A stretch of DNA of 64,000 bases from an archaeon. GTDB taxonomy: Archaea; Nanobdellota; Nanobdellia; Woesearchaeales; GW2011-AR15. The notes below the pieces were generated by a model, which saw nothing but the letters and a program-made list of their open reading frames with translations, did not search any database and was not told where the DNA came from. Shown in pieces: positions 21,961 through 61,342 of the stretch. The stretch's first letter is position 1, and every line of letters begins with the position of its first letter. The stretch covers positions 52,191 through 116,190 of the forward strand of contig JABHXU010000015.1 in NCBI GenBank assembly GCA_018657065.1. Reading direction: 5' to 3'. Both the position numbers and the translations under genes were made by a program.

Positions 21961-24900
21961 TTATTGGGCAGTTGCTACTGTTTTCAATTCATCAGGAATC
22001 AATATAACGTAGTTCATCTGTTGTCCGTTTTCTAGGACTTTATTTATTGTCATAGATTCTTCTGTAAAAATAATTTGAACATTTGAATAAGGATTTCCAT
22101 CAAATTTTGCACTGAGTGTGTCAATAAATCTTTCATCAGCTGGGCTTGGAGCAGGTTTAACTACATCAGTTAAAGATGGATGAGTGTGAGCAGTAGAATA
22201 ATATGGATGTTGGTAGTCTCTACCTCCTAACATTGCACAACTAGTTTCACTGCAATATGAAAATTTCGCAGATTCATCTCTTAAGCTTTGTTCTATCCAT
22301 CCAAAAGGATCTTCTTCCATTCCTGCAGCTTTTGCACCGTCCATAATTTCATCATAAGAATCTGGGTGAAAAAAATCTTCAGGAGTTTTTCCCATTCTAG
22401 CAAGTCTATCCGCTATTGGATCGCTTTTATCAAAAAGCATAGTATTGAATGCATTAAAATCATCCCATCCAGAGTCTGCTATTCTTATATGAACGTCCGC
22501 TGGAGTTCCGGATTCTAAGAGAGAGAAAACATGATCTCCCTCAAGGTTAAAATTTCTAGTTAATATTTGAGACCTAACTTCAGCACTTAAAGTGTTTTGT
22601 TTTGCAATTGTATTAGCGAAATGCTCCATCATTTCATCTGTAATAACTACAAAAGAACCATCGGGAAATTTCAAAACTGTTGCAGTATCACTAATTTTAT
22701 CAAGCATGCTTGCAGGTAATCCTGTAGGAAGATCATCCATTTTTGTACCTAATTCAAATATGGCATCAATTCCATGTCCATCTGCATAATTTAGAATATC
22801 AATATTTCTTCCACCATGACTTACACTAATAATTCTATAATTATCATCATTGAGCATGTTTGATGCTATTTCATCCATACTTAATCTTGTTACATCATCT
22901 ATTAAATTATCAGCCATGCCAAAACCAAATAATTGAAACATATCTTTTCCCACACCAACAAATGTTTGAGAAGCAATATCAGCAAAATTAAGAGCAGTTT
23001 TACCAAATCTAACTGCACCAGTTGAAGTTTTTGCAATAATCGCTTCGCCAGCAAGAGCATAACCTCCTAAAGTCATGGCAAGTGCTGCAGCAACTTCCAT
23101 TGTTGTATCAGGTATCATTTCAGCAACAAATGACGCAGCTTTCATTTTATCAAGCTCTGCTCTTCCTTCAATTGAAGCTGTAAACAAATTGATTAGTGTT
23201 TCATCATCAAATTTACCTAATAGTGGTGCTAGAGATCTAGGTACATTAAATATTTCATTTCCAATTTCAATATATTTATGTGTATATGTTGTTGAGCTAA
23301 AAACTCCACCATTGGTTCGACCAATAGTAGCTAAACTTCCTATTAACTCTTCATAGTTTTGTGCTGTGGCATCAACCATGTCAAGATGTATCATAAAACC
23401 TAATTTTTGTAATTCTAATTCCATAGATTTATCATATAAACCTGAGTCTAAATAACTCTGAGCAGCATTTCCAAGAAGATCCAATTTTGCATTATTTACA
23501 GCGGATTCATCTAATGTACGATCAAAGTTAGAATCTTTTACAAGAGGATAATAAATTTCACCAATTGTTACTCCTGTCATACCTTTTTCAATTGCATCAT
23601 CAATTAAATCAAGTCCTAAAGTATACTTAACTTCAGGAAGTTGTAAAGCTGCTGCTATATTTGGATCTTCACCAAATTCTTTGTTTATTTCAATTAAAGA
23701 TACGCCATTCATTCTTAAGGCATCAATAGTATCAAGACCCCTTAATGATTCTTGATAATCTCTTATTTCATCAAACATATCTTCTTCGTTTCCAAAACCC
23801 CATCTCTTGATGTCATCTGAGACAAGTCCACCAAAAAACATATCCAAATCTGATGCTTTATATGTACCACCTTCCATATCTACTCTATATGGACTATAAA
23901 TATATTCAATTATTCCATTGAGTTCATGAATTTGACTTTCAACAAAAAGTTCAGAACTCATAAGTTTTTGTTTATCTAAAAAGAAATCTTGCATGTCTTC
24001 TAAAGAGCAATCAGCAGTACTACAATAAGTATATGTGTCTCTCCAAGCGTTTTTTTGAAATTTTGTGTTTAAGTAACTATCAAAAATACCACTAACTGCA
24101 ACTTCTCTTTGTTCAAGAAGAACAGATGTTCCAGTACTAAAATATAAATTTTCTACATCAAGATCTTCGTCATTAAATTGATCATATCTAAATGATTCAT
24201 GATGCATCCAAACATTTTCTTCTGGGGTTTCTGGGACCTCTTCAAGGTGGTCTAACCATCTTAAAAGGTATTTTTCATAATCTTCTATTGAAATCATATT
24301 TCCACTATTTGGAGGCATTTCTAGAATTCCATCTTCATCATACTGTTTTAATGTATTTATTTGAAGATTAACTGCATTGATATCCATATTATGAACATTT
24401 AATCCTCCATTTCTATGTATTTCAAACATTTTATCTTCGAGTTGAAGAAATGGATTAAATTCATTGAATATTCTATCTGTAGATGAGAAGGGAGCATCAG
24501 GTGTTCCAAATACATGAATACCGTCGTATCTTCCTTCTCTATATATAGAATCAAGATACATCTCTGTGTTTCCATTAGACATAGATCCTAAATATCCTTC
24601 AGGAGGGTTATCTCCATAAAATTCAAATTCAATATCATGGAGGTTTTCATCAAGGTTAAGCATTAAATAATCGTATTCTAAATCATAATGATTACCTTCA
24701 GTAATAGGTCCATTTTTTCCATATGTTGCAGTAACATATCCTCTTGAAACTGCAGCGTCAGTTAGACTTCCATCATAATTAATATCTTCTCCCCAAAAGA
24801 CAAAACCATGAATCTGTCTAGCATCTAACTCTGAGTGAAGTGTTTCAAGGATGTCAGTTTCGCATTCCAAACAAAATTTAATTGGACCATCTGTAGATGG

Positions 24901-25716
24901 AGATGCACAATGTTCTTTTTCATCAACACAAACATAGCTTTTTTCACCTCGAAGTTCAATAGGTTTTGAGAAATCAATTTCACCAGCAGAGGTGAAAAAA
25001 CTACCATGACCATATATTTCATCATCATCAATAGTTAGATATGCATCATTAAATTGAATTTCACTATCTGCAAATTTAATATTTCCTTCACCTAAAACTT
25101 CAATTTCAACATTTCCAGTTTGAAGGTTTCCATCATTATTAACAATTAAATTATCAAAATTACCTGTAATTTCAACAGAATTTTCGCCTTTAAAAAATGA
25201 AAAACCATAATATGTTTCTTCTTCAAATTCATATTGTAAAAATCCAATTCCTTCGAATTCAGTTAATAAAGAGGCATCAACCGTTTTTCCATTATTTTCA
25301 ATTATACCTTCTTCTGAAATTGTAATACCTGAGGCTAAATCATCTGAAAAAGCAATAGTAAATCCTTCTTGAAGCCCAAACTTAGAGGTTAAAGCACTAG
25401 CTAATCTATCTGGTTTTTCAGAAAACATTGTAAGATCATTAAATCCATGTAAATTTTCACCTAATAATTCATCAGATAATTGATCTAGATTTTTCATAAC
25501 AATACTATCAGGGACTTGGCTTAAATCCTTGAGTGCTTCATTCCAACTAAAATAGCACTCAAAATCACATTCTCCTAGAGTACATGCTTCATAAGACTCA
25601 CAACTACATATTGGAGGATCACAAGAATCTTCTTCTTCTCCAGGAGGTAAATAAGCAATAATTGTTAAGTTGCATAGCAAAAAATAAATTAGAATTAAGA
25701 AAATACTCTTTTTCAT
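21961..25716 (-). CDS. Large secreted protein with C-terminal JAB/MPN-like motif
   Basis: Signal peptide; C-term AHTHPSLTDVVKPAPSPADERF (codons about 22135-22188) resembles JAMM HxH...SxxD; internal hydrophobic segment before C-terminal domain. Confidence 0.75.
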   Translation of the reverse strand: MKKSIFLILIYFLLCNLTIIAYLPPGEEEDSCDPPICSCESYEACTLGECDFECYFSWNEALKDLSQVPDSIVMKNLDQLSDELLGENLHGFNDLTMFSEKPDRLASALTSKFGLQEGFTIAFSDDLASGITISEEGIIENNGKTVDASLLTEFEGIGFLQYEFEEETYYGFSFFKGENSVEITGNFDNLIVNNDGNLQTGNVEIEVLGEGNIKFADSEIQFNDAYLTIDDDEIYGHGSFFTSAGEIDFSKPIELRGEKSYVCVDEKEHCASPSTDGPIKFCLECETDILETLHSELDARQIHGFVFWGEDINYDGSLTDAAVSRGYVTATYGKNGPITEGNHYDLEYDYLMLNLDENLHDIEFEFYGDNPPEGYLGSMSNGNTEMYLDSIYREGRYDGIHVFGTPDAPFSSTDRIFNEFNPFLQLEDKMFEIHRNGGLNVHNMDINAVNLQINTLKQYDEDGILEMPPNSGNMISIEDYEKYLLRWLDHLEEVPETPEENVWMHHESFRYDQFNDEDLDVENLYFSTGTSVLLEQREVAVSGIFDSYLNTKFQKNAWRDTYTYCSTADCSLEDMQDFFLDKQKLMSSELFVESQIHELNGIIEYIYSPYRVDMEGGTYKASDLDMFFGGLVSDDIKRWGFGNEEDMFDEIRDYQESLRGLDTIDALRMNGVSLIEINKEFGEDPNIAAALQLPEVKYTLGLDLIDDAIEKGMTGVTIGEIYYPLVKDSNFDRTLDESAVNNAKLDLLGNAAQSYLDSGLYDKSMELELQKLGFMIHLDMVDATAQNYEELIGSLATIGRTNGGVFSSTTYTHKYIEIGNEIFNVPRSLAPLLGKFDDETLINLFTASIEGRAELDKMKAASFVAEMIPDTTMEVAAALAMTLGGYALAGEAIIAKTSTGAVRFGKTALNFADIASQTFVGVGKDMFQLFGFGMADNLIDDVTRLSMDEIASNMLNDDNYRIISVSHGGRNIDILNYADGHGIDAIFELGTKMDDLPTGLPASMLDKISDTATVLKFPDGSFVVITDEMMEHFANTIAKQNTLSAEVRSQILTRNFNLEGDHVFSLLESGTPADVHIRIADSGWDDFNAFNTMLFDKSDPIADRLARMGKTPEDFFHPDSYDEIMDGAKAAGMEEDPFGWIEQSLRDESAKFSYCSETSCAMLGGRDYQHPYYSTAHTHPSLTDVVKPAPSPADERFIDTLSAKFDGNPYSNVQIIFTEESMTINKVLENGQQMNYVILIPDELKTVATAQ

Positions 25717-46098: not shown

Positions 46099-46992
46099 TT
46101 GTTGAATAGTACTAATATGGGTAAAGGGCAAATCACAATGTATGTGATTTTTGGAATAGTGACTATTTTTATTTTGGGAATAAGTTTACATTTTATTAAC
46201 AATCATAAGAAAAACGAAGTTTTAATTGATGTTGGTGATGAAACTCTAAATTCAGTTTTAGCTCAAGTAAAAAATTATGTTGAAGAGTGTGTATTAGTTT
46301 CTTTAGAATTAGGGATAGCGAATTTTACGAGTCCAAATGGGGGGTATATAGATCCAAAATATAATGAATACTATGGAGATGTAGATGTAGTCAATTATAT
46401 TGAATACCAAGGACATAAAGTTCCTTTTTGGAATGAAGATGCAAAGGATATTAGTCTTAGTTTTGAATCAATAGAACAAAAGCTTTCAAATTTTGTTTAT
46501 GTAGAAACAATGAATTGTATTAATAATATAGATAACGAAATTGAACAAGTGGAGATAAATTTTGCAAAGATTGGATTGATTGACCTTAATGATTTTCAAG
46601 ACATAAACTTAAATGTGCAACTTAACGAAGATGATGTAGATGTTTTTTTTAATCTCCCAATTATTATAATCTCAGGCGAATCAGAAACTTTGATTAATGA
46701 ATTTAGCGCAACATTACCATATAATATCAAACGAAATTTTGAACTAGCCAAGAGGATTTTAAATGAGATAATTGCATCTCAACCAAATTACTACGATATT
46801 CGAGAAAATTGTATTAATTATCCAGTAACAGGAATGCAAAAGATAATTACTCAGGATTATACTATGACACCTGAAGAACATATAACTATTGTGAAAATAT
46901 ATGATTATGAGACAATTAATTATTTGGAAAGAAAAGCGATTTCTTTAATATTTGCTGTGAAAAATTTCAATGTAAGAGGAATGTGTGTATGA
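46099..46992 (+). CDS. Type IV pilin-like/class III signal peptide membrane protein (paralog of 25713-26453)
   Basis: [22 protein letters not shown]; shared GGY block and C-terminal FAV. Confidence 0.7.
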
Positions 46993-48773
46993 AGAAAATA
47001 TTAATTACTTTGTTTTTTTTGACTTTGATAAGTTTTTCTATAGCTGAAGAATGTCCGCCTGGACAAGAAAAAATTATTAGTTACAGTGCTGATAAAAGTG
47101 AAATCTTTGAAGGTTGTTGTGAAGATCTAGATAAACCAACATGCGTGTGGGGAGAAGGAACTTGTTATTATGGTTCTTTTTCAGCAGGGCCTTGGTATTT
47201 ATGTTTTGAAAACAATTGGTATGATTGTAATAGGGAGAGATTAGTAGGAGACTATTATTGTGATTATGAACAAAGAGATGAAAATGGTTATCCTATATGG
47301 ATACCTTTCGAGGATTATGAATCTGGTTGTTTTGGGGAAAATAGCTATTGTGGAATTTGTTTAGGAAAAAATGAATATTGTGGTTTACCATGTACGCCCA
47401 AGTGTGTTGATAACCCAATTTCAAACCCTGACTATGAAGGCACTCCATATAATCAAATTCAAGCAACGAGACAATATACTGGAAAATGTTCTGAAGGAAT
47501 ATGTGTCGAGAGAGATTGTAATTATAATAAATATAGCTATTCTAGTGATTGTTTCACAACAATTCAAGATACGGATTTAGATGGTGTGCCTGATGAATAC
47601 GATAGATGTAAAACCCCGTTTGAACTAAGAAATTTTGAAGTGGATGAATATGGTTGTGCTCCATCAGATTATATTGTGGAAACTGAATGTTCTCATTTGT
47701 TTGGAACAGGGTCTAATATTAATTTTGTTGTGTTTCCTTGTGGTTTTGATGTTCATGAAAAAGTTGTTTTCGAATACTGGTCAAAAAAAATTTCTGATAT
47801 TATTCAGCGAGCAGAGCCTTATAATTCTTATCCTAATGAATATTCAGTGTATTATGTTTGGTCAACAGAAAAAGAAGGTTTTAAAGGTTATTCAGGTTCA
47901 TTAGGAAATCAGGTAGAAGATAGTTCTAAAAAATGTCATTCTGGAAAAGAAGCATCAAAATCAATGATTGACCAGGTATGTGGAAACCTAGAAAACCAAA
48001 TAATTATTGATGTTGCTCATAATAGTGCAGAAGCAGGGGCAGATTATGAGTTTAGTTTTGCTATAGTAAGTGAAGGAACTCCATGGTGTTGTGGAATTTT
48101 AGAAAATTGTTGCTCTATATATGAGAAGAATGAATTACTTGGATATGGTGAAGGATCAGTTAGTGAAGATATGCCCTATATGGTTTTGCATGAAATAGGA
48201 CACTTATTTAAACTGGGACACTCAACTGGGTTTGTTTCCGGAGAAAGTTTGATAGAAGGACAATTTAAAGATTATACAGAAGACTTATACTCTCCAATAG
48301 TATATCCAATTTCCGAAGATAATTATGTGAATGAACCTTGTCCGATTTGGGATTTTCCAGAGGTTCATTATTGGGCAGATTTATTTGGTCAGAGTGTAGG
48401 CTGTTATCAAGGATATTGGGATTATAAACATAGTTATTCAATATTAAATTATGAAATGGAATGGACAACAATGACTACTCCAAGAGAGCCACCTTTTATA
48501 TATAGTCCGATTTCCGCTAGATTAATAGAAATAGCACTAACAGAAGGATATGAAAATTTCATTTCAATGGACTTTCCAAACAAGTGTGAGGATTTTGAAG
48601 ATCAAACAATTCGAGAAGAATGTTTGGTTAAAGCATGTAAGTATGTTGAAGAAGATAGAAAAGAGGAATGTTGTAAAGGAACTCCAATTGAATTAGGAAT
48701 TGATCCTGAAATAGATGAATCTGGAGAAGCCACAAACCCCTTATTTATTGACTGTATGAACTTATATAGTTAA
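46983..48773 (+). CDS. Secreted metzincin-like zinc metallopeptidase, Cys-rich, with TSP3-like segment
   Basis: Signal peptide; VLHEIGHLFKLGHS (48189-48221); TDLDGVPDEYDRCKTP; 10-nt overlap with upstream gene. Confidence 0.78.
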   Translation: MCMKKILITLFFLTLISFSIAEECPPGQEKIISYSADKSEIFEGCCEDLDKPTCVWGEGTCYYGSFSAGPWYLCFENNWYDCNRERLVGDYYCDYEQRDENGYPIWIPFEDYESGCFGENSYCGICLGKNEYCGLPCTPKCVDNPISNPDYEGTPYNQIQATRQYTGKCSEGICVERDCNYNKYSYSSDCFTTIQDTDLDGVPDEYDRCKTPFELRNFEVDEYGCAPSDYIVETECSHLFGTGSNINFVVFPCGFDVHEKVVFEYWSKKISDIIQRAEPYNSYPNEYSVYYVWSTEKEGFKGYSGSLGNQVEDSSKKCHSGKEASKSMIDQVCGNLENQIIIDVAHNSAEAGADYEFSFAIVSEGTPWCCGILENCCSIYEKNELLGYGEGSVSEDMPYMVLHEIGHLFKLGHSTGFVSGESLIEGQFKDYTEDLYSPIVYPISEDNYVNEPCPIWDFPEVHYWADLFGQSVGCYQGYWDYKHSYSILNYEMEWTTMTTPREPPFIYSPISARLIEIALTEGYENFISMDFPNKCEDFEDQTIREECLVKACKYVEEDRKEECCKGTPIELGIDPEIDESGEATNPLFIDCMNLYS

Positions 48774-51700
48774 TAGCTAATATTTGAAATATCCATTTTC
48801 CAAAGACCATGGTTCATTAAACTTAAAACTAAATATTTGTTATCTGCAGTAATGCCTAAAACATTTGCAACATTATATCTAACTTGATTGTTTGTAGTAG
48901 GAAGTCCAGTGTTTAGTGGTTTCCAAAGTTCTCCAGAATTATAACTAATGTAATTACCTTTGTTGCTGCTTAAGAATAAAATATTTTCATTTTTTGGATG
49001 AATTATAATATTATAGAATTCACTTTTATTGTCAAGCCCATTCATAATGTATTCCCAACTATTACTACTGTTTATCGATTTCATAACAACTCCACAAAAA
49101 TCATTTTTATTACAATGAGCTTTGTTTTGACCATTTTTAGTTGCAGTGTATAAAATATTTGTATTATTCTTATCAATAGCAATTGAAAAAGGCCATTGTT
49201 CAGAGGGCATACCTAAACTTTTATGTTCCCAAGTTTTTCCATAATTTACAGACTTAAATATGCTATTATAAGTTCCTGCATATAATATTGAAGAATTATT
49301 TTGATCTTGTGCTATACTCATAGGTCCATCATTTCCAAGTCCTAAACTACTATCTTCCCATGATTTTGCTCCATTTGTTGAAACATATAATCCACTTGGA
49401 AAATTTGCAAAAAATATTTTATTTGGATCTATTTGATCATACAATAATGAAATGGTTGAGTAAGTTCTTCTGTCCCAATGAGTCCAATATTCGTAACCAA
49501 TTGGATATCCCAAGTTTTTCCAATATTTTGTTTTTTTATTTAGTTTAAAAACACCATAACCATTTGAACCTGCAAGGATATCTTCTCCAATAAATTCTAA
49601 TGTTAGTATATCCTTTGAATCAAATCCTTTATTTAATTCAGACCAAGTTTTACCTTGGTTTTTTGAAAAATAGATTCCTGAATTTGATATTAAATATATA
49701 TGGTCTGAATTATTAGGATCAACTCGAACTTCTCTAATTCCTAATTTCATTATTTTTTTATTTTGTCCAAATTTACCATAAAGACCTTGCCAGGTATTTC
49801 CACCATCAATAGATTTAAACACTCCTTTTTTGTATATTCCTAAGTATAAAATTTTGGAATTGTTGGGATCAATTTCTAAACTATAATATCCTTGTTTTAA
49901 TGGATAATCAACTTCAAAAGAAGGAAGAGCAAAATTAATTTCAGACCAAGTTTCACCATTGTTTATTGATTTAAATACACCTCCAGGATATGATGAAGTG
50001 TATAAAATATCTGAGTCTTTTGGATCTGTTTTTATTATAATGTTATGAATTTTTGGTCTTGGTCCAGATGAATTATTCCAGGTAATTGAAAAATTATTAT
50101 TTATTTTTCCAGAATATACTCCACCACCTAATGTTCCAACATAAACATAATTATTTGTAATAACCATATCCCCAATATTTAAAAAATTTAAATTTTTATT
50201 TTGTGAATTCCAAGTTTTTGTTTTATCAGTGCTAAGATAGATTCCTGTTTTAGTAGCAACATAAAATACACTAGAATTTTTAGGGTGCTGTTTTATTTTT
50301 TTAACTGATGAATTAAAGGGATTATTTTTTAAAGTAACATACCAGTTTTGTCCATCATTGTTTGAAACATATACTTCATTTATTATATTATCATCTTTAA
50401 CTCTATTTTTAAGTTTAAAATCTAAATCACTTGCACCAGCAGCATATATATAATCATTTGTTATTAAAAGGTTATTAAAACCAATATCTGGCAATTTTTT
50501 TGAAATATCTATAAATTTTCCTTGTTTTAATTTATACATTCCTTTAATATGTGGGACAGCATATATATCATTATTAAAAGATTCAAAAGAAATGATAGTT
50601 CTTTTTTTGTCTCCTTTTATTTGATTTATAATCTTTCCATTTGATTTGAATGTTGTTCCAGAAATAGGACCTCTAAATATTACATCAAAAAACCCTCTTA
50701 TTTTATTCATAACAGAAAAATACAACTCACCTTTGTGTAAAGTCATTGACATAATTCTATAGTATTTTTTATTATCAAGATTAATAATTTTGTTCCATGT
50801 TATTCCTTTGTCAATAGTTTCATAAATTACAGGTGTTGTTCTATCACTAATCAATATTCTATTTGAATTTGTTTTATCAATAATTATGTCACCGACAGAA
50901 TAAATTGGAGAATTTATTTGAGTCCAAGTTTGTCCTGAATTAATAGATCTAAATAATCCACCACCCCAAGGAGCTGCATAAATAATTTTCTCATTTGAAT
51001 GATCAACAGAAATTTTATGAATATTTGAAAAAGTTAAAAAAGGATTTAGATTTTTCCATGTTTTACCTAAATTATCACTGTAGATAATTTTAGAATTATT
51101 TCCAGTAATTCCTGCATATATTCTATTATTTATATCAAACTCAAGAGCAGTAATGCCTGTGGATTCTTCCTTAAAAACTAATGACCAATTAGCATCAATA
51201 TTATTGTCATTAGTAAATTTGTAAATAGATGAATGATTTTCAAAGAATTTTGGTGAATTAGAAGCAAATAATATTGAATTGTTAGTTGGGTGAAATTCAA
51301 AATCATAGGAGTAATCAGGGGAACCTGAAAGCTGGTAAAAATGCTCAAAATCATAATAATCTTTAAATTTTATATTTGTAGAAGTTGATAATCCATATCC
51401 AAGAATTGATGAAAAAAATAAATCATTTTTGTAATGTTCAATATCATTTACTTTTGCAGCATTAAATAAAGGATTCATAAACGTGAGATTATGTCCAAAA
51501 TTGTCTGATTTATGAATTTCACTTGATTCTGCAGCAAATAAAACTTCAGAAGGATTATGAGGATTGAATTTAATATCTTCAATAAATAATAATTTAAAAT
51601 GTGTTGAAATCATTTCACTTGTATTTCCAAAGTTTTTTGTTAGGTAAGGGATTTGTCCAAAATTTGAAGCAGCAATAATTATATTAGGATCTGTTGGATG

Positions 51701-52891
51701 AAGTTCAATATGATTCATGAAGGGACTAATGATACCATTATCCTTTTTTTCCCATGTCTTCATATTGTCATTTGATTTCAAAAATTGATGATATTTAGAT
51801 AAGCCATAAACCAAGTTGTTATCTTCAGTATCAGGTAGTAATTTATTCATTGCAAAGAATAAATTTTCATTACCTTTCATAATAGGATCAACACCATTAA
51901 TGACTTTGGTAGTTAGATTGAATTCTTGTAAAGGTATTTCAATATAAGCAATAGTTAATAAATCATCTTTGAGAAATAAATTTGAAATTCCATTAGGAGA
52001 TTCAACATTTATTTGTGAAATTGGTAACCATGTTAGTCCATTATCAAAAGATTCAAATAAAGAATCTTGAAAAGATACCATTTGACTAGTCCCATGTAAT
52101 TTGTGCATAAATGATATAATTAAATGACCTGGTTTTTTTTCATCCTTAATTATATCAGATAAAATTAAATGTTTTTTTACAGGTAAATTAACCTTTGTCC
52201 AAGATTCACCTAAATCATGTGATACATAAAGAATTCCATTACTATATTGTCCACTCCCACCTAAATCTGTTTGTTTACCTGTAGGTCCTCCATTACCATG
52301 TTCTCCAGCTTCAATCATTACATAGGCAAAGATCTTATCATCTAAAACTAAAAACTTTGAAAGTTTAACAAAATGAGCAAAATCAAAATTATTAGGAGGG
52401 AGCACTAAATCTGAAAGTTCTTTTTCATTTGGTGAAATGTCAATTACTTTTTGATTGTTAAGATTAATTACAATAAATTTATTGTCTTCCTTTTTTGTAT
52501 TTGAGTTAAAACTAACATAGATGAGGTTATCTTTAATACTAATTTCTTGACAACCTCTAGATTTATTCACAGAAAAAATTTGTTTAAAAATATTATTTTC
52601 ATATTGAAAAACACCTAATCGACTGCATAAAAATAATTGATTATTTTGCATATCTAGTTGTGTGTATTCATAAGAATTATTAATTAAAGACCAAGATTCA
52701 GCCTTATTGTCTGATTTATAAACTCCTCTGTATGTTGTTAAGTATAGTTCATTTGGATTATTTTCATTTTGTACGAAATCAATTACATGTCCTCCTGGAG
52801 GCCAATCCATAGATTCCCATACTAATTCGTTACTATATACAATATTTATTAAGAAAAATAATAATAGAATGATGAGCATAGATTTTCTCAT
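48770..52891 (-). CDS. Giant secreted Asp-box (BNR/sortilin-like) beta-propeller protein
   Basis: At least 10 S-x-D/N-x-G-x-T-W repeats, e.g. SDNLGKTWKNL, KSIDGGNTWQGL. Confidence 0.88.
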   Translation of the reverse strand: MRKSMLIILLLFFLINIVYSNELVWESMDWPPGGHVIDFVQNENNPNELYLTTYRGVYKSDNKAESWSLINNSYEYTQLDMQNNQLFLCSRLGVFQYENNIFKQIFSVNKSRGCQEISIKDNLIYVSFNSNTKKEDNKFIVINLNNQKVIDISPNEKELSDLVLPPNNFDFAHFVKLSKFLVLDDKIFAYVMIEAGEHGNGGPTGKQTDLGGSGQYSNGILYVSHDLGESWTKVNLPVKKHLILSDIIKDEKKPGHLIISFMHKLHGTSQMVSFQDSLFESFDNGLTWLPISQINVESPNGISNLFLKDDLLTIAYIEIPLQEFNLTTKVINGVDPIMKGNENLFFAMNKLLPDTEDNNLVYGLSKYHQFLKSNDNMKTWEKKDNGIISPFMNHIELHPTDPNIIIAASNFGQIPYLTKNFGNTSEMISTHFKLLFIEDIKFNPHNPSEVLFAAESSEIHKSDNFGHNLTFMNPLFNAAKVNDIEHYKNDLFFSSILGYGLSTSTNIKFKDYYDFEHFYQLSGSPDYSYDFEFHPTNNSILFASNSPKFFENHSSIYKFTNDNNIDANWSLVFKEESTGITALEFDINNRIYAGITGNNSKIIYSDNLGKTWKNLNPFLTFSNIHKISVDHSNEKIIYAAPWGGGLFRSINSGQTWTQINSPIYSVGDIIIDKTNSNRILISDRTTPVIYETIDKGITWNKIINLDNKKYYRIMSMTLHKGELYFSVMNKIRGFFDVIFRGPISGTTFKSNGKIINQIKGDKKRTIISFESFNNDIYAVPHIKGMYKLKQGKFIDISKKLPDIGFNNLLITNDYIYAAGASDLDFKLKNRVKDDNIINEVYVSNNDGQNWYVTLKNNPFNSSVKKIKQHPKNSSVFYVATKTGIYLSTDKTKTWNSQNKNLNFLNIGDMVITNNYVYVGTLGGGVYSGKINNNFSITWNNSSGPRPKIHNIIIKTDPKDSDILYTSSYPGGVFKSINNGETWSEINFALPSFEVDYPLKQGYYSLEIDPNNSKILYLGIYKKGVFKSIDGGNTWQGLYGKFGQNKKIMKLGIREVRVDPNNSDHIYLISNSGIYFSKNQGKTWSELNKGFDSKDILTLEFIGEDILAGSNGYGVFKLNKKTKYWKNLGYPIGYEYWTHWDRRTYSTISLLYDQIDPNKIFFANFPSGLYVSTNGAKSWEDSSLGLGNDGPMSIAQDQNNSSILYAGTYNSIFKSVNYGKTWEHKSLGMPSEQWPFSIAIDKNNTNILYTATKNGQNKAHCNKNDFCGVVMKSINSSNSWEYIMNGLDNKSEFYNIIIHPKNENILFLSSNKGNYISYNSGELWKPLNTGLPTTNNQVRYNVANVLGITADNKYLVLSLMNHGLWKMDISNISY

Positions 52892-56673: not shown

Positions 56674-57591
56674 ATGATACTTAAACAAATACCTGAAGAT
56701 TTCATTGTTGAAGAAATTCCTAAAATTTCTAAATCAAAATTAGGAAGCTATTTTTATTATAAACTTAAAAAAACAAATTACAATACTGAAAAAATTATTC
56801 AGTTACTTTGTAAAAAACATAATTTACCTAGAAAATACTTTTCTTATGCAGGAAATAAAGATAAAATTGCAATAACAACCCAATATATATCAGTTAAACA
56901 AGAGATACCTGAATTGAAAACAGAAGGTTTTGAAATTAAAAAAATTGGAAGAGGTAAGAATCCAATATCACTTGGAGATTTAAATGGAAATAGATTTATA
57001 ATTACTGTTAGAGATATAACTAAAAAGCCATTTGAAAAATCAGAATTTATTAATTATTTTGGAGAACAAAGGTTTGGTAAACATAATGTGGAAATTGGAA
57101 TTGCTATTTTAAAAAAAGATTTTAAAAAAGCATCATCATTAATTGATTATTTTTTTGTTCAAGAACATTTAAAACAAAAACCTAATGACTATGTAGGTGC
57201 AATACAAAAGGTTCCATTTAAAATTTTAAAAATATATATTCATGCAGTTCAAAGTTATTTTTGGAATAAAGTTGCAAAACAAATTGTTGTAGATGAGATT
57301 CCTCTTATTGCTTTTGATACTGATTTTGAAAATAGTGAGATTGAAAAAGCTTATGACAAGATACTTTTAGAGGAAAAATTATTATTAAGAGATTTTGTTA
57401 TTAGACAATTTCACAATTTAACTCCACACGGTACAATTAGAAAAAGAATAACTAAAGTTAAAGATTTAAAAATAGGAAATTTAGAAAACGATGAATTAAA
57501 TAAAAAAAATAAAAAAATAAAAGTGGAGTTTGTCCTAAACAAAGGGAGCTATGCTACTGTTTTTATTAAATTTTTATTTAGCCAAATATAG
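56674..57591 (+). CDS. truD: tRNA pseudouridine synthase D
   Basis: FSYAGNKDKIAITTQYISV, NYFGEQRFGKHN. Confidence 0.93.
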   Translation: MILKQIPEDFIVEEIPKISKSKLGSYFYYKLKKTNYNTEKIIQLLCKKHNLPRKYFSYAGNKDKIAITTQYISVKQEIPELKTEGFEIKKIGRGKNPISLGDLNGNRFIITVRDITKKPFEKSEFINYFGEQRFGKHNVEIGIAILKKDFKKASSLIDYFFVQEHLKQKPNDYVGAIQKVPFKILKIYIHAVQSYFWNKVAKQIVVDEIPLIAFDTDFENSEIEKAYDKILLEEKLLLRDFVIRQFHNLTPHGTIRKRITKVKDLKIGNLENDELNKKNKKIKVEFVLNKGSYATVFIKFLFSQI

Positions 57592-60500
57592 CAGACAACC
57601 AGCTAAATATTTGTTTTATTAGTGAATTTGTTTCAGCTAAGTCTTCACTTAAATCAGCACATTTCCCACTCATACAAGTGTTACTTTGACACTCATAATT
57701 GTTTTGACATACTGAGTTTTTTCTTAGTTGAGATTCAAATTCTTTGCTAATTCCACAATATGAAGGTTCAGAGTTTTTAACTAATCTAGTTCCATATGGC
57801 AGGCAAGCTCCTTGATAAGTGCAGCCATCGCAATTAGGATCTACAGTTTGAGTGTTACATTTACCTTCATCACATCCAAATTCACAATCATAATATTTAC
57901 TGGATGTTGAATCACCATTACAACTATATTCAAGTAATTTATAAGAATTGATACAGTAATCTGTTGCGCCATTTGGTGTTTCTTTAGATATAACAGTTCC
58001 TTTGTTCCAAGTATTAAATCCTCCATCTGAATCACTACAAACATTAGGAACAACACCTAAAGCTTCATCAATTTCTTTTTTGAAATTTTGATAAGGTTGA
58101 GCTCCTGAAACTAATTTTCCATTAATAAAAAATGCAGGAGTACCTTTAGCACCTTGTTGTTGTCCTTCGTTGAAATCATCGTTAACTTCTTTTTTGTATC
58201 TTTCTTCATCCATACAATTATTGAATCTACTTGATGATAATCCTAAATCTTTAGCCCATTTTTTGAAATTTTCATAACTTAAATCTGCTTGATTTTTAAA
58301 CAATAAATCATGATAATCCCAAAACTCGCCTTGTTCATGTGCACACTCGGCTGCTTGCGCAGCCTTGTATGCATTTTGATGAAAACTGAGTGGGAAATTA
58401 CTAAAAACAAATTTAACTTTTCCAGTATTTATGTATTCTTTTTTTATTTGATCAAAAGTATCATCATGGAACCTTTTACAAAATGGACATTCATAGTCAG
58501 CGTATTCAATAATGGTTACAGGAGCATTACTTTTTCCAAGGTATGGTTCTTCTAAATTATTACTAAGCGTACATTTACCCTCATAATCTTTAGAAACACT
58601 TGCACCTTTTCTAAAACAATCATTACTATATGTTTCTCCATTACATCCGCACACAGGATCATATTGTTCTGTGCAAACTTCGGGTTTGACTTCACAACTT
58701 CCAGACCTTGATCCGCAAGTGTTTAATTCACAAAATTCATTACTTTTACAATCACTGTTACTATAACATAAATCCTCATTTTTGTAAGAGTAAAAATTAG
58801 CAAAATCTGCTTTTGAATGACCACTGACTGTAGCAATTGATACCAAGTAATATTTTTCAATTGCATTTGCGTCTTCATTACCTGCGACAGCTACAGCTAC
58901 AGCATCTGATTCTTCTTTTGCATCTTCAATAAAAACCTCTTCTGTATCACTATATAAATATCTGGAATAAGAATTTCCAACAACATATTTACCTTCATAA
59001 ATACAAGTTTGCCATGTAACTCCAGGTCCTACAGCTGTTCCTACAGCAGTGTCACATGTTTGTTTATACATGTAAACTTTGTGAGCTTCGCCACTTGGAG
59101 AAATGACAATTGTTTTTACAGATCCTACAGCATTTTGACCTGAAATTTCACCAGTTACTTTTACTGTTTCACCTAAATTATAAATTGATTTATCGGTTTT
59201 AACATTGTAAGTGAAGTCATTGTTTTGTATACATTCGCCATTTAAGCAACCATTTGGACAAGTAACATAATCTCCATTCACATGAACATTATCTTCATGA
59301 CAATAGTACTCTCTTAAATGATTGGTGTCTTCGCATTTATCATACCAATATCTAGGATTCTGGCTTGCATCAAGAGCATAGGTTTTACCTTTTTCATAGA
59401 TTTCTCGCCCACCATCAGAATCTGTGCATGTTATAGTTGGTTGAAGTTTACATGCACCATTACTACATCCATAAGGACATTTGTAATATGTATTATCACC
59501 TTGATTATTTGAACAATAAGTTTCAATTAAATAACAATTATTTCCTGTACATTCTCTTGCATAATAGTTTCTTGAAGGATCATTAGGATTACCTCCTAAT
59601 TGGCAGTAATCTTCATCATATCTAGTTACACCATTTCCAGTATAACCTTTTTCATAATAGTTTTTACCATTATCTGAATCAATACAAATATTGTTTCCTA
59701 GGTATCTATCAATAATTTTAATGAAATTTTCTAACGGCTGTGCACCTACAATTATTTCACTATTTATTAAAAATGTTGGAGTTCCTGAAACATCATCATC
59801 ATTAGACATTTCAATATCATCTTCTAATTCTTGTTCAAAGATACCATTTTCAACACATTCTTCCATTTCATCGTCATTAGCACCAACATCTTCGGCATAA
59901 TTATACGCGTCATTCATTGAGCTTGGAGGATTTTGCATCATTAAATCAACGAATTTAAAAAAATCATCTTCTCCTTCTTCATCTAAGATACATTCACCAA
60001 GCATTGCAAATTCATCACCATTTGAGTGAAAAGGCATTGGTTTATTTCTAAATTCAAAACTAATACTATCTCCATATTTATCAAATAATGAACTTATAGT
60101 TGTCCAAGATCTTTGTGAGAATGGACATTGAAATCCTAAATAACCAATTATTTTGACAGGAGCATTTTTAGATCCTTTAACTGGTTCAGGTTGCATTTTT
60201 TGAGTTGGTTCATCAGTGCATCTTCCGTCATTACATCCACTTGGACAAGCTCTATCAACATAAGTTGTTGTTACATAAGGATTTGTACAATAGTATTCTC
60301 TAATACCACATAAACTACCTTCACAATTGTTCCATGGTTGTTTTGTGTTCATGTTTTGACAGTAGTCTGTGTGCTGAGGACCTTCTTCAAATCTAGGTTC
60401 AGTAATTGTTCCTCTTTCATAAATATCAATTCCATCATCTGTTTCGTAACACATTCCTTTTTCATTTGTACATTTTCCTCGATTACAATAAGGGGCATTA

Positions 60501-61342
60501 GTTGGACAGTATACAGGTTTATGAACATTTTTACCATTTTCACAAACAGCTTCATAGAGTTTTCCATATGGTCTATTTGTTGAAAATGAACAATAATCTA
60601 CTGATCCGGAGTTTCCTGATTGAGCTTTACCAACTTGATAATAATTGATTCCACCATCAGAATCTGTGCATGTTTCAGATACACAATCATCAGATAGTAC
60701 AATACCATCATAATTCCAGTCTAAAGAATATACAAAAATTTGGTTATTATTAGCATCTTTAAATCTAATTGAATCATCACCAAAATAGATCCAAGTTCCA
60801 GTATTTGTTTGTGGAGTTTGTCCACCTTTATATTTATCAAAACCATAATTTACCTTATTTGGATTAATTGCTAATCTAATTTCACCTAAGGAACCTAATG
60901 AATATACATCAGATTGATATTCACAATTGTTATCAACTGTGTCTTCATAACTTTTTCCATATGTTAAATCCTTTATAGTAATTTCAGTTTCACCATTAAC
61001 ACATTTGTAATCATCAATTTCTAACATGTGTGTTACTCCATCGTATGTTGTGTATAAAAGTTTAACACCTTCAGGATCCATATAACCATTATGTCCTGAT
61101 AAAAGAAGTGGTTCATCATAATCATCTCCAATTTGGATCTGACCATTGTAATAATAATAAGGAAAATTTACTTCATATCCTTGTTTATTTCTAAAATCTA
61201 TTTGAAATTTATTTCCAAAATAATCGAATTCTAATTCTTCTTTAATATTTTCACAAGTAATAGCATTTGCACTTAATGCTAATAATATAAGTAATGCTGT
61301 AAATATAATATATTTTAATTTTAATTTCATTTTTTCGTTCAC
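57578..61342 (-). CDS. Giant secreted protein: two DsbA-like domains, Kazal domain and CxDSDGG repeats
   Basis: [18 protein letters not shown] and [19 protein letters not shown]sbA-like; [25 protein letters not shown] Kazal; five CxDSDxG motifs. Confidence 0.88.
   Translation of the reverse strand: [1254 protein letters not shown]

Follow-up and report, generated by a model that had tools for sequence, protein, structure and literature searches.

Short KGQIT proteins paired with exchangeable secreted partners: a candidate surface-display cassette of DPANN archaea

Introduction

Little is known of how DPANN archaea adhere to other cells and take advantage of them. Several described systems come close to the genes considered here. 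Minor pilins and PilY1, and the archaeal DUF2341 tip-adhesin model (PMC4858521), associate a small pilin with a large protein at the tip of a pilus. In bacterial polymorphic toxin systems, JAB, transglutaminase and ART domains are listed toxin classes, and JAB toxin domains have been proposed as nucleases (PMC3482391). Among DPANN archaea, secreted peptidoglycan hydrolases are prominent in Nanoarchaeota (PMC12352652), and a DPANN-only secreted protein cluster (cls.004306, NEQ255) is described, in the passages of PMC6393860 that deal with it, from 43 of 67 genomes, often beside S-layer-like proteins. Here, we analyse two gene pairs in a 64,000-nucleotide (nt) stretch of contig JABHXU010000015.1 (hereafter the window), each linking a short protein with a KGQIT N-terminus (P0001, P0002) to a large secreted partner (P0003, P0004).

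The genome to which the window belongs comprises 1.49 Mb in 25 contigs. Its relatives in named collections are metagenome-assembled genomes of Woesearchaeota, Pacearchaeota and Nanoarchaeota, all of them DPANN archaea. We argue that each pair is probably a copy of a modular DPANN surface-display cassette, in which a cognate anchor would hold exchangeable extracellular effectors or adhesins. This cassette is apparently undescribed in the searchable literature, the nearest mention being the NEQ255 cluster.

Pairing of KGQIT genes with large secreted proteins

Members of the KGQIT family were collected from targeted loci by similarity to P0002, not by neighbourhood. A pair was defined as a KGQIT gene followed, between -45 and +100 nt downstream, by a same-strand gene for a secreted protein of at least 300 amino acids (aa), secretion being judged by hydrophobicity. 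In a first set of loci, drawn from the window's own class, 40 of 51 short members lay directly upstream of a large secreted gene (14 at exactly -4), versus 16 of 237 size-matched open reading frames (ORFs) and 4 of 49 comparably sized ORFs whose N-terminus is hydrophobic. A second set (80 loci from named GTDB genomes, drawn by another method and having some genomes in common with the first) yielded 39 pairs for 47 short members, the same controls giving 18/192 and 7/38. Against the hydrophobic-N-terminus control, Fisher's p is 2e-13 for the first set and 3e-9 for the second; per genome, at least one pair was found in 22 of 25. The association of KGQIT homologues with large secreted proteins, suspected in a preliminary description of this DNA, is thus borne out by both surveys, and the cassette is real and widespread.

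Within the window itself, both pairs exist as described, once coordinates are corrected (table 1). The MGKGQIT reading of P0001 starts at the ATG at 46117, position 46099 being an upstream TTG, and the ATG of the 594-aa secreted protein (46989) sits within the stop of the KGQIT gene. The 10-nt overlap first reported for this pair must therefore be replaced by a 4-nt ATGA: the larger figure arose because a GTG six bases upstream had been taken as the start, and the P0003 label still refers to this 596-aa reading. For the opposite-strand pair, the reported 4-nt overlap is correct and is again an ATGA. A third short KGQIT paralogue of the window genome (C13:242128) also overlaps the gene of a secreted protein, of 502 aa. 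In the C-terminal part of this third partner (L055:7841-9349), Glyco_transf_88 matches below threshold (E 0.00045, 19.7 bits versus a cut-off of 27).

P0001 and P0002, presented earlier as paralogues, are indeed homologous, with a weak but colinear BLASTP alignment (22% over 227 columns, E 0.009). A family profile grown from three seed proteins of the window genome matches both, themselves among the seeds, over nearly their full length. At E <= 1e-10, 319 of 380 genomes from the phylum (about 84%) have a match to this profile, often in several copies; the surveyed loci yielded 79 proteins, of which 54 are short, and a longer form (~650 aa) is paired with a partner of ~1650-1930 aa. Conserved features are a KRGQ[VI]T.F start, a Cys after the transmembrane (TM) helix, GGY, a second Cys and an FA[V] end. 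Besides the GGY block and C-terminal FAV already noticed in both proteins, P0001 and P0002 have in common two conserved cysteines, which are invariant in the A5 alignment (C57 and C121 in P0002 numbering). No relative of the KGQIT proteins was found in Pfam, NCBIfam or PHROGs, and the best matches of the family in a PDB profile search had E >= 0.07; a weak match of P0001 to an antiporter (E 0.02) was judged to be due to chance.

Some genomic contexts recur. Tandem KGQIT cassettes occur among the surveyed loci. KGQIT cassettes also lie directly downstream of PCNA in at least five loci (L060, L063, L068, L076, L077), with one gene in between in L158 and L182, or directly downstream of the DNA polymerase II large subunit DP2 in at least three (L052, L067, L197), the PCNA of L060 and the DP2 of L052 being confirmed by Pfam. 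On contig C9 of the window genome (L098 1873-6363, 8428-12645 and 15796-18261), three more proteins with a KGQIT-type N-terminus are 821-1496 aa long, and one is directly followed by a 1004-aa secreted protein.

Partner exchange, co-inheritance and natural fusions

The idea of a modular system with different partners stands: 118 distinct cassettes comprise 54 partner sequence clusters, 39 of them singletons, revealing a fast turnover of partners versus a stable anchor. P0003 and P0004 have matches in 3 and 2 of 334 other genomes, respectively. Pfam domains found among partners include M64, trypsin, SLT transglycosylase, glucosaminidase, LysM, thioredoxin, Kelch and Ig-like domains; the Pfam matches listed for the 86 partners scanned include none to DUF2341 or PilY1 domains. 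An HExxH motif is present in 7 of 79 partners versus 4 of 249 other large ORFs, and only 2 of the 79 display a C-terminal TM-like segment. True peptidoglycan is not known from archaea. Accordingly, partners with SLT and glucosaminidase domains suggest bacterial targets, in line with previous reports (PMC12352652, PMC9723730).

Partners are also co-inherited with their own KGQIT proteins. On the KGQIT tree, 15 partner clusters need 15 changes (the least possible being 14), and the three large clusters plus the rest, taken as four groups, need 5 changes versus 49 when shuffled. A single genome may contain several cassette types (e.g. G072), so that this agreement does not reflect species descent alone. 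Moreover, three genomes (G336, G386 and G252) encode in-frame fusions of a complete KGQIT domain with the C1 partner family (E 1e-53 to 1e-41), which elsewhere is a separate partner. These fusions align from about partner residue 245-290, and no separate large secreted gene was seen directly downstream of them, the G252 fusion lying at a contig edge. They are the strongest sign that both products may act as one surface unit.

These same observations bear on the idea that the pair encodes functionally separate cell-envelope (S-layer-like) proteins, co-transcribed for dosage without binding each other. Many partners are Cys-rich or contain Ig or Kelch domains and lack enzymatic motifs, which such a role would explain, and the position of NEQ255 beside S-layer-like proteins, as far as PMC6393860 details it, points the same way. 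However, natural fusions, cognate co-inheritance and the turnover of partners on a stable anchor make such a separate role quite improbable.

A pilin-like membrane anchor

The preliminary description had proposed an export or display role for a pilin-like KGQIT protein. Export is unlikely, and an export apparatus can be set aside, because the partners have their own Sec-type signal peptides and fused forms exist; the fusions point to anchoring or display instead. The pilin likeness holds for the N-terminus, where a KG/Q class-III-like site precedes a hydrophobic helix: Q is found at +1 in every member with the motif, K or R at -2 and mostly G at -1. It fails at position +5, which in the 157 members with the motif is F (144), Y (12) or L (1, a long form) and never the Glu of the class III motif QXSXEXXXL, and it fails for the predicted head, which matches no solved structure.

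In the AlphaFold2 model of P0002 (from 49 sequences), a TM helix (residues 4-29) is followed by a second helix (38-71), a third (103-125) and a mixed alpha/beta head, and a Cys57-Cys121 disulfide probably connects helices two and three. Foldseek returned no credible match in PDB or BFVD (no PDB match at E <= 0.001, TM-scores up to ~0.3, which the long TM helix may depress), and the pilin or archaellin head fold was not among the PDB matches of the predicted head.

In a pilus-tip scenario, the KGQIT protein would be a minor pilin in a type IV pilus and the large secreted partner its tip adhesin, along the lines suggested for minor pilins and PilY1. The class-III-like signal fits, as does the pairing logic, which recalls both PilY1 and the DUF2341 model (PMC4858521), and the window genome contains TadC-type T2SSF genes and a prepilin peptidase. 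The latter is present in 20 of 20 KGQIT-bearing genomes tested, and also in most genomes without the family. On the other hand, in the genomes compared, cassettes are found at a distance from T2SSF genes, and two draft genomes (G076 and G017) combine KGQIT and prepilin peptidase genes with no T2SSF match over the cut-off. Together with the residue at +5 and a head that resembles no pilin in PDB, this makes a pilus tip unlikely. To judge from sequence and model, the KGQIT protein resembles a membrane anchor, pilin-derived or pilin-like, more than it does a subunit of a filament.

Variable C-termini in the P0004 family and the P0003 peptidase-like domain

The front and centre of P0004 (about residues 1-990) are common to proteins of G190, G365 (two copies), G539, G553 and G281, and wherever the contig reaches far enough, the gene immediately upstream is a KGQIT gene (G190, G553, both G365 copies, G281 and the window). 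By contrast with this constant part, their C-termini are unrelated to one another. That of G365 matches Pfam Transglut_core over the cut-off (E 6.1e-7); those of G190 (HD-like, HDIGY), G539 (ART-like) and P0004 (JAB-like, HTHP..S..D) were assigned from motifs by eye. The JAB-type HTHP...SPAD motif (residues 1177-1194 of P0004) was present in 1 of 1566 ORFs and absent from all 7830 shuffled proteins; neither Pfam, PHROGs nor plasmid tblastn gave a match for the JAB assignment, and tblastn of the G190 and G539 C-termini against plasmids also found nothing. Matches of the P0004 C-terminus in G079 and G152 (E 0.004-0.009) lie outside cassettes and were attributed to chance. With its constant front and centre and seemingly exchangeable C-termini, the layout of this family is polymorphic-toxin-like.

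At least the P0004-type partners could carry their variable C-terminal enzyme into another cell by contact, the KGQIT protein serving as launcher. Besides the layout and the upstream KGQIT gene, the assignment of the C-termini to known toxin classes is consistent with such a delivery. Nonetheless, we consider it rather doubtful, as no translocation domain was identified, three of the four C-termini are defined at motif level only, the family is rare (6 of 341 genomes) and no immunity gene adjoins P0003 or P0004 in the window, where the neighbours are convergent. This last feature would, for its part, fit effectors aimed at other species.

Two observations concern relatives of P0004. In the G190 copy only, a possible immunity gene of 135 aa (L197:11292-11699) overlaps the HD-type partner (1707 aa) at its end. 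Shortened family members of 426 aa (L214:5878-7158) and 635 aa (L216:79-1986) end before the variable C-terminus and have an overlapping KGQIT gene upstream.

The proposal that both partners are zinc peptidases can be retained in part: P0003 is metzincin/M64-like in appearance, with all Pfam matches below cut-off, and the JAB assignment of P0004 stays at motif level. The candidate zinc motif of P0003 keeps its three His, but position 8 is Lys instead of the usual metzincin Gly (HExxHxxGxxH/D); downstream, SILNYEM resembles a Met-turn. Its peptidase domain is also found in a protein of G224, a genome without KGQIT family match, and is therefore not tied to the cassette. A single-sequence fold of this domain gave no usable model (predicted local distance difference test, pLDDT, 31).

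Table 1. Features of the two KGQIT gene pairs, in window coordinates.
Feature	Position	Strand	Characteristics and basis
Putative KGQIT anchor protein P0001, 291 aa	46117..46992	+	class-III-like signal, one N-terminal TM helix, conserved Cys pair, GGYI, C-terminal FAV; profile E 1.8e-45
ATGA start/stop overlap, first pair	46989..46992	+	sequence
Secreted partner P0003, 594 aa	46989..48773	+	signal peptide, Cys-rich N-terminal half, metzincin/M64-like peptidase domain
Peptidase-like domain of P0003, residues 229-520	47673..48548	+	common to 1393-aa G224 protein; Pfam M64 E 0.0027, Reprolysin_3 E 0.0033, both below gathering cut-off
Candidate zinc-binding motif HEIGHLFKLGH of P0003 (HExxHxxxxxH)	48189..48221	+	residues 401-411 of 594-aa reading
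Paralogous putative KGQIT anchor protein P0002, 246 aa	25713..26453	-	AlphaFold2 model pLDDT 92; family profile E 8.8e-66
ATGA start/stop overlap, second pair	25713..25716	-	sequence
Secreted partner P0004, 1251 aa	21961..25716	-	conserved front and centre, family-variable C-terminus
Variable C-terminal domain of P0004, residues 991-1251	21961..22746	-	absent from P0004 relatives
JAB/JAMM-type motif HTHPSLTDVVKPAPSPAD of P0004	22135..22188	-	motif level only; no Pfam match

Two other large secreted proteins are encoded on the reverse strand of the window. One (48770-52891, 1373 aa) is a Sortilin-Vps10/BNR beta-propeller protein convergent with the P0001/P0003 pair. The other (57578-61330, 1250 aa) contains two DsbA/thioredoxin stretches and a Kazal domain and may help to form disulfides in the numerous secreted proteins that are rich in Cys.

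A model for surface display

In the surface-display reading, the KGQIT protein would be inserted through its class-III-like N-terminus and probably trimmed at KG/Q by the archaeal prepilin peptidase, remaining in the membrane as a single-pass protein whose conserved ectodomain is probably disulfide-linked. The second gene, translated via the ATGA overlap, would give a product exported by Sec, devoid of its own membrane anchor, which the cognate KGQIT protein would retain at the cell surface. With a conserved anchor and a swapped partner, the same mount could carry peptidases or peptidoglycan hydrolases as well as toxin-like enzymes or adhesin-like repeats, and such effectors may be directed at neighbouring cells or a host.

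Several points weigh against this model. Signal peptides were judged by hydrophobicity, and most partners have no recognisable enzyme domain. KGQIT proteins without adjacent secreted partner amount to 11 of 51 and 8 of 47 in the two sets, and the fusions do not include the front part of the partner. Plain vertical descent of an operon would also yield co-inheritance, which is itself imperfect, as KGQIT proteins beside P0004-type partners are spread over more than one clade of a wider tree (4 changes for 6). On balance, we still consider surface display by a cognate anchor to be the most likely function.

More tentatively, and with some reservation, KGQIT cassettes might be the main system, so far without a name, by which Nanobdellota (Woese-/Pacearchaeota-type DPANN) display or deliver effectors. 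An anchor of new fold would then expose host or prey cells to peptidases, cell-wall hydrolases and polymorphic-toxin-like proteins that evolve fast, as part of the molecular basis of an episymbiotic or predatory life. In any case, the cassette is a countable genetic unit, with an anchor found in most sampled genomes of the phylum, and makes it testable whether these archaea use surface-held hydrolases and toxin-like enzymes. As the partners are mostly orphans, similarity alone misses candidate host-interaction proteins, which the KGQIT anchor could serve as a tag to list.

Comparison with known systems

The archaeal peptidoglycan hydrolases (PMC12352652) resemble those KGQIT partners that contain SLT, glucosaminidase or LysM domains; that work describes the hydrolases with no dedicated anchor-partner cassette and no mention of pilins. 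The NEQ255 cluster, compared by description only, comes close in being a secreted protein confined to DPANN archaea and widespread among them, often with S-layer-like neighbours, but its description, in the passages of PMC6393860 concerned, includes no pairing rule, fusion or effector exchange.

Bacterial polymorphic toxins (PMC3482391) share with the P0004 family a constant front and centre and exchangeable C-terminal enzyme domains of toxin classes. The P0004 family differs in being archaeal, in being paired with a putative membrane anchor and in lacking an adjacent immunity gene in the window; RHS, WXG, T5 or T6 trafficking domains were not found in it.

Finally, minor pilin/PilY1-like pairs and the archaeal DUF2341 tip-adhesin model (PMC4858521) are similar in that a small protein with a class III signal is encoded with a large secreted adhesin-like protein. 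KGQIT proteins depart from them by the missing Glu at +5 and a predicted head unlike solved pilins; no linkage of their cassettes to pilus machinery genes was seen, and the cassettes are further set apart by fused forms and by highly diverse partners that include hydrolases.
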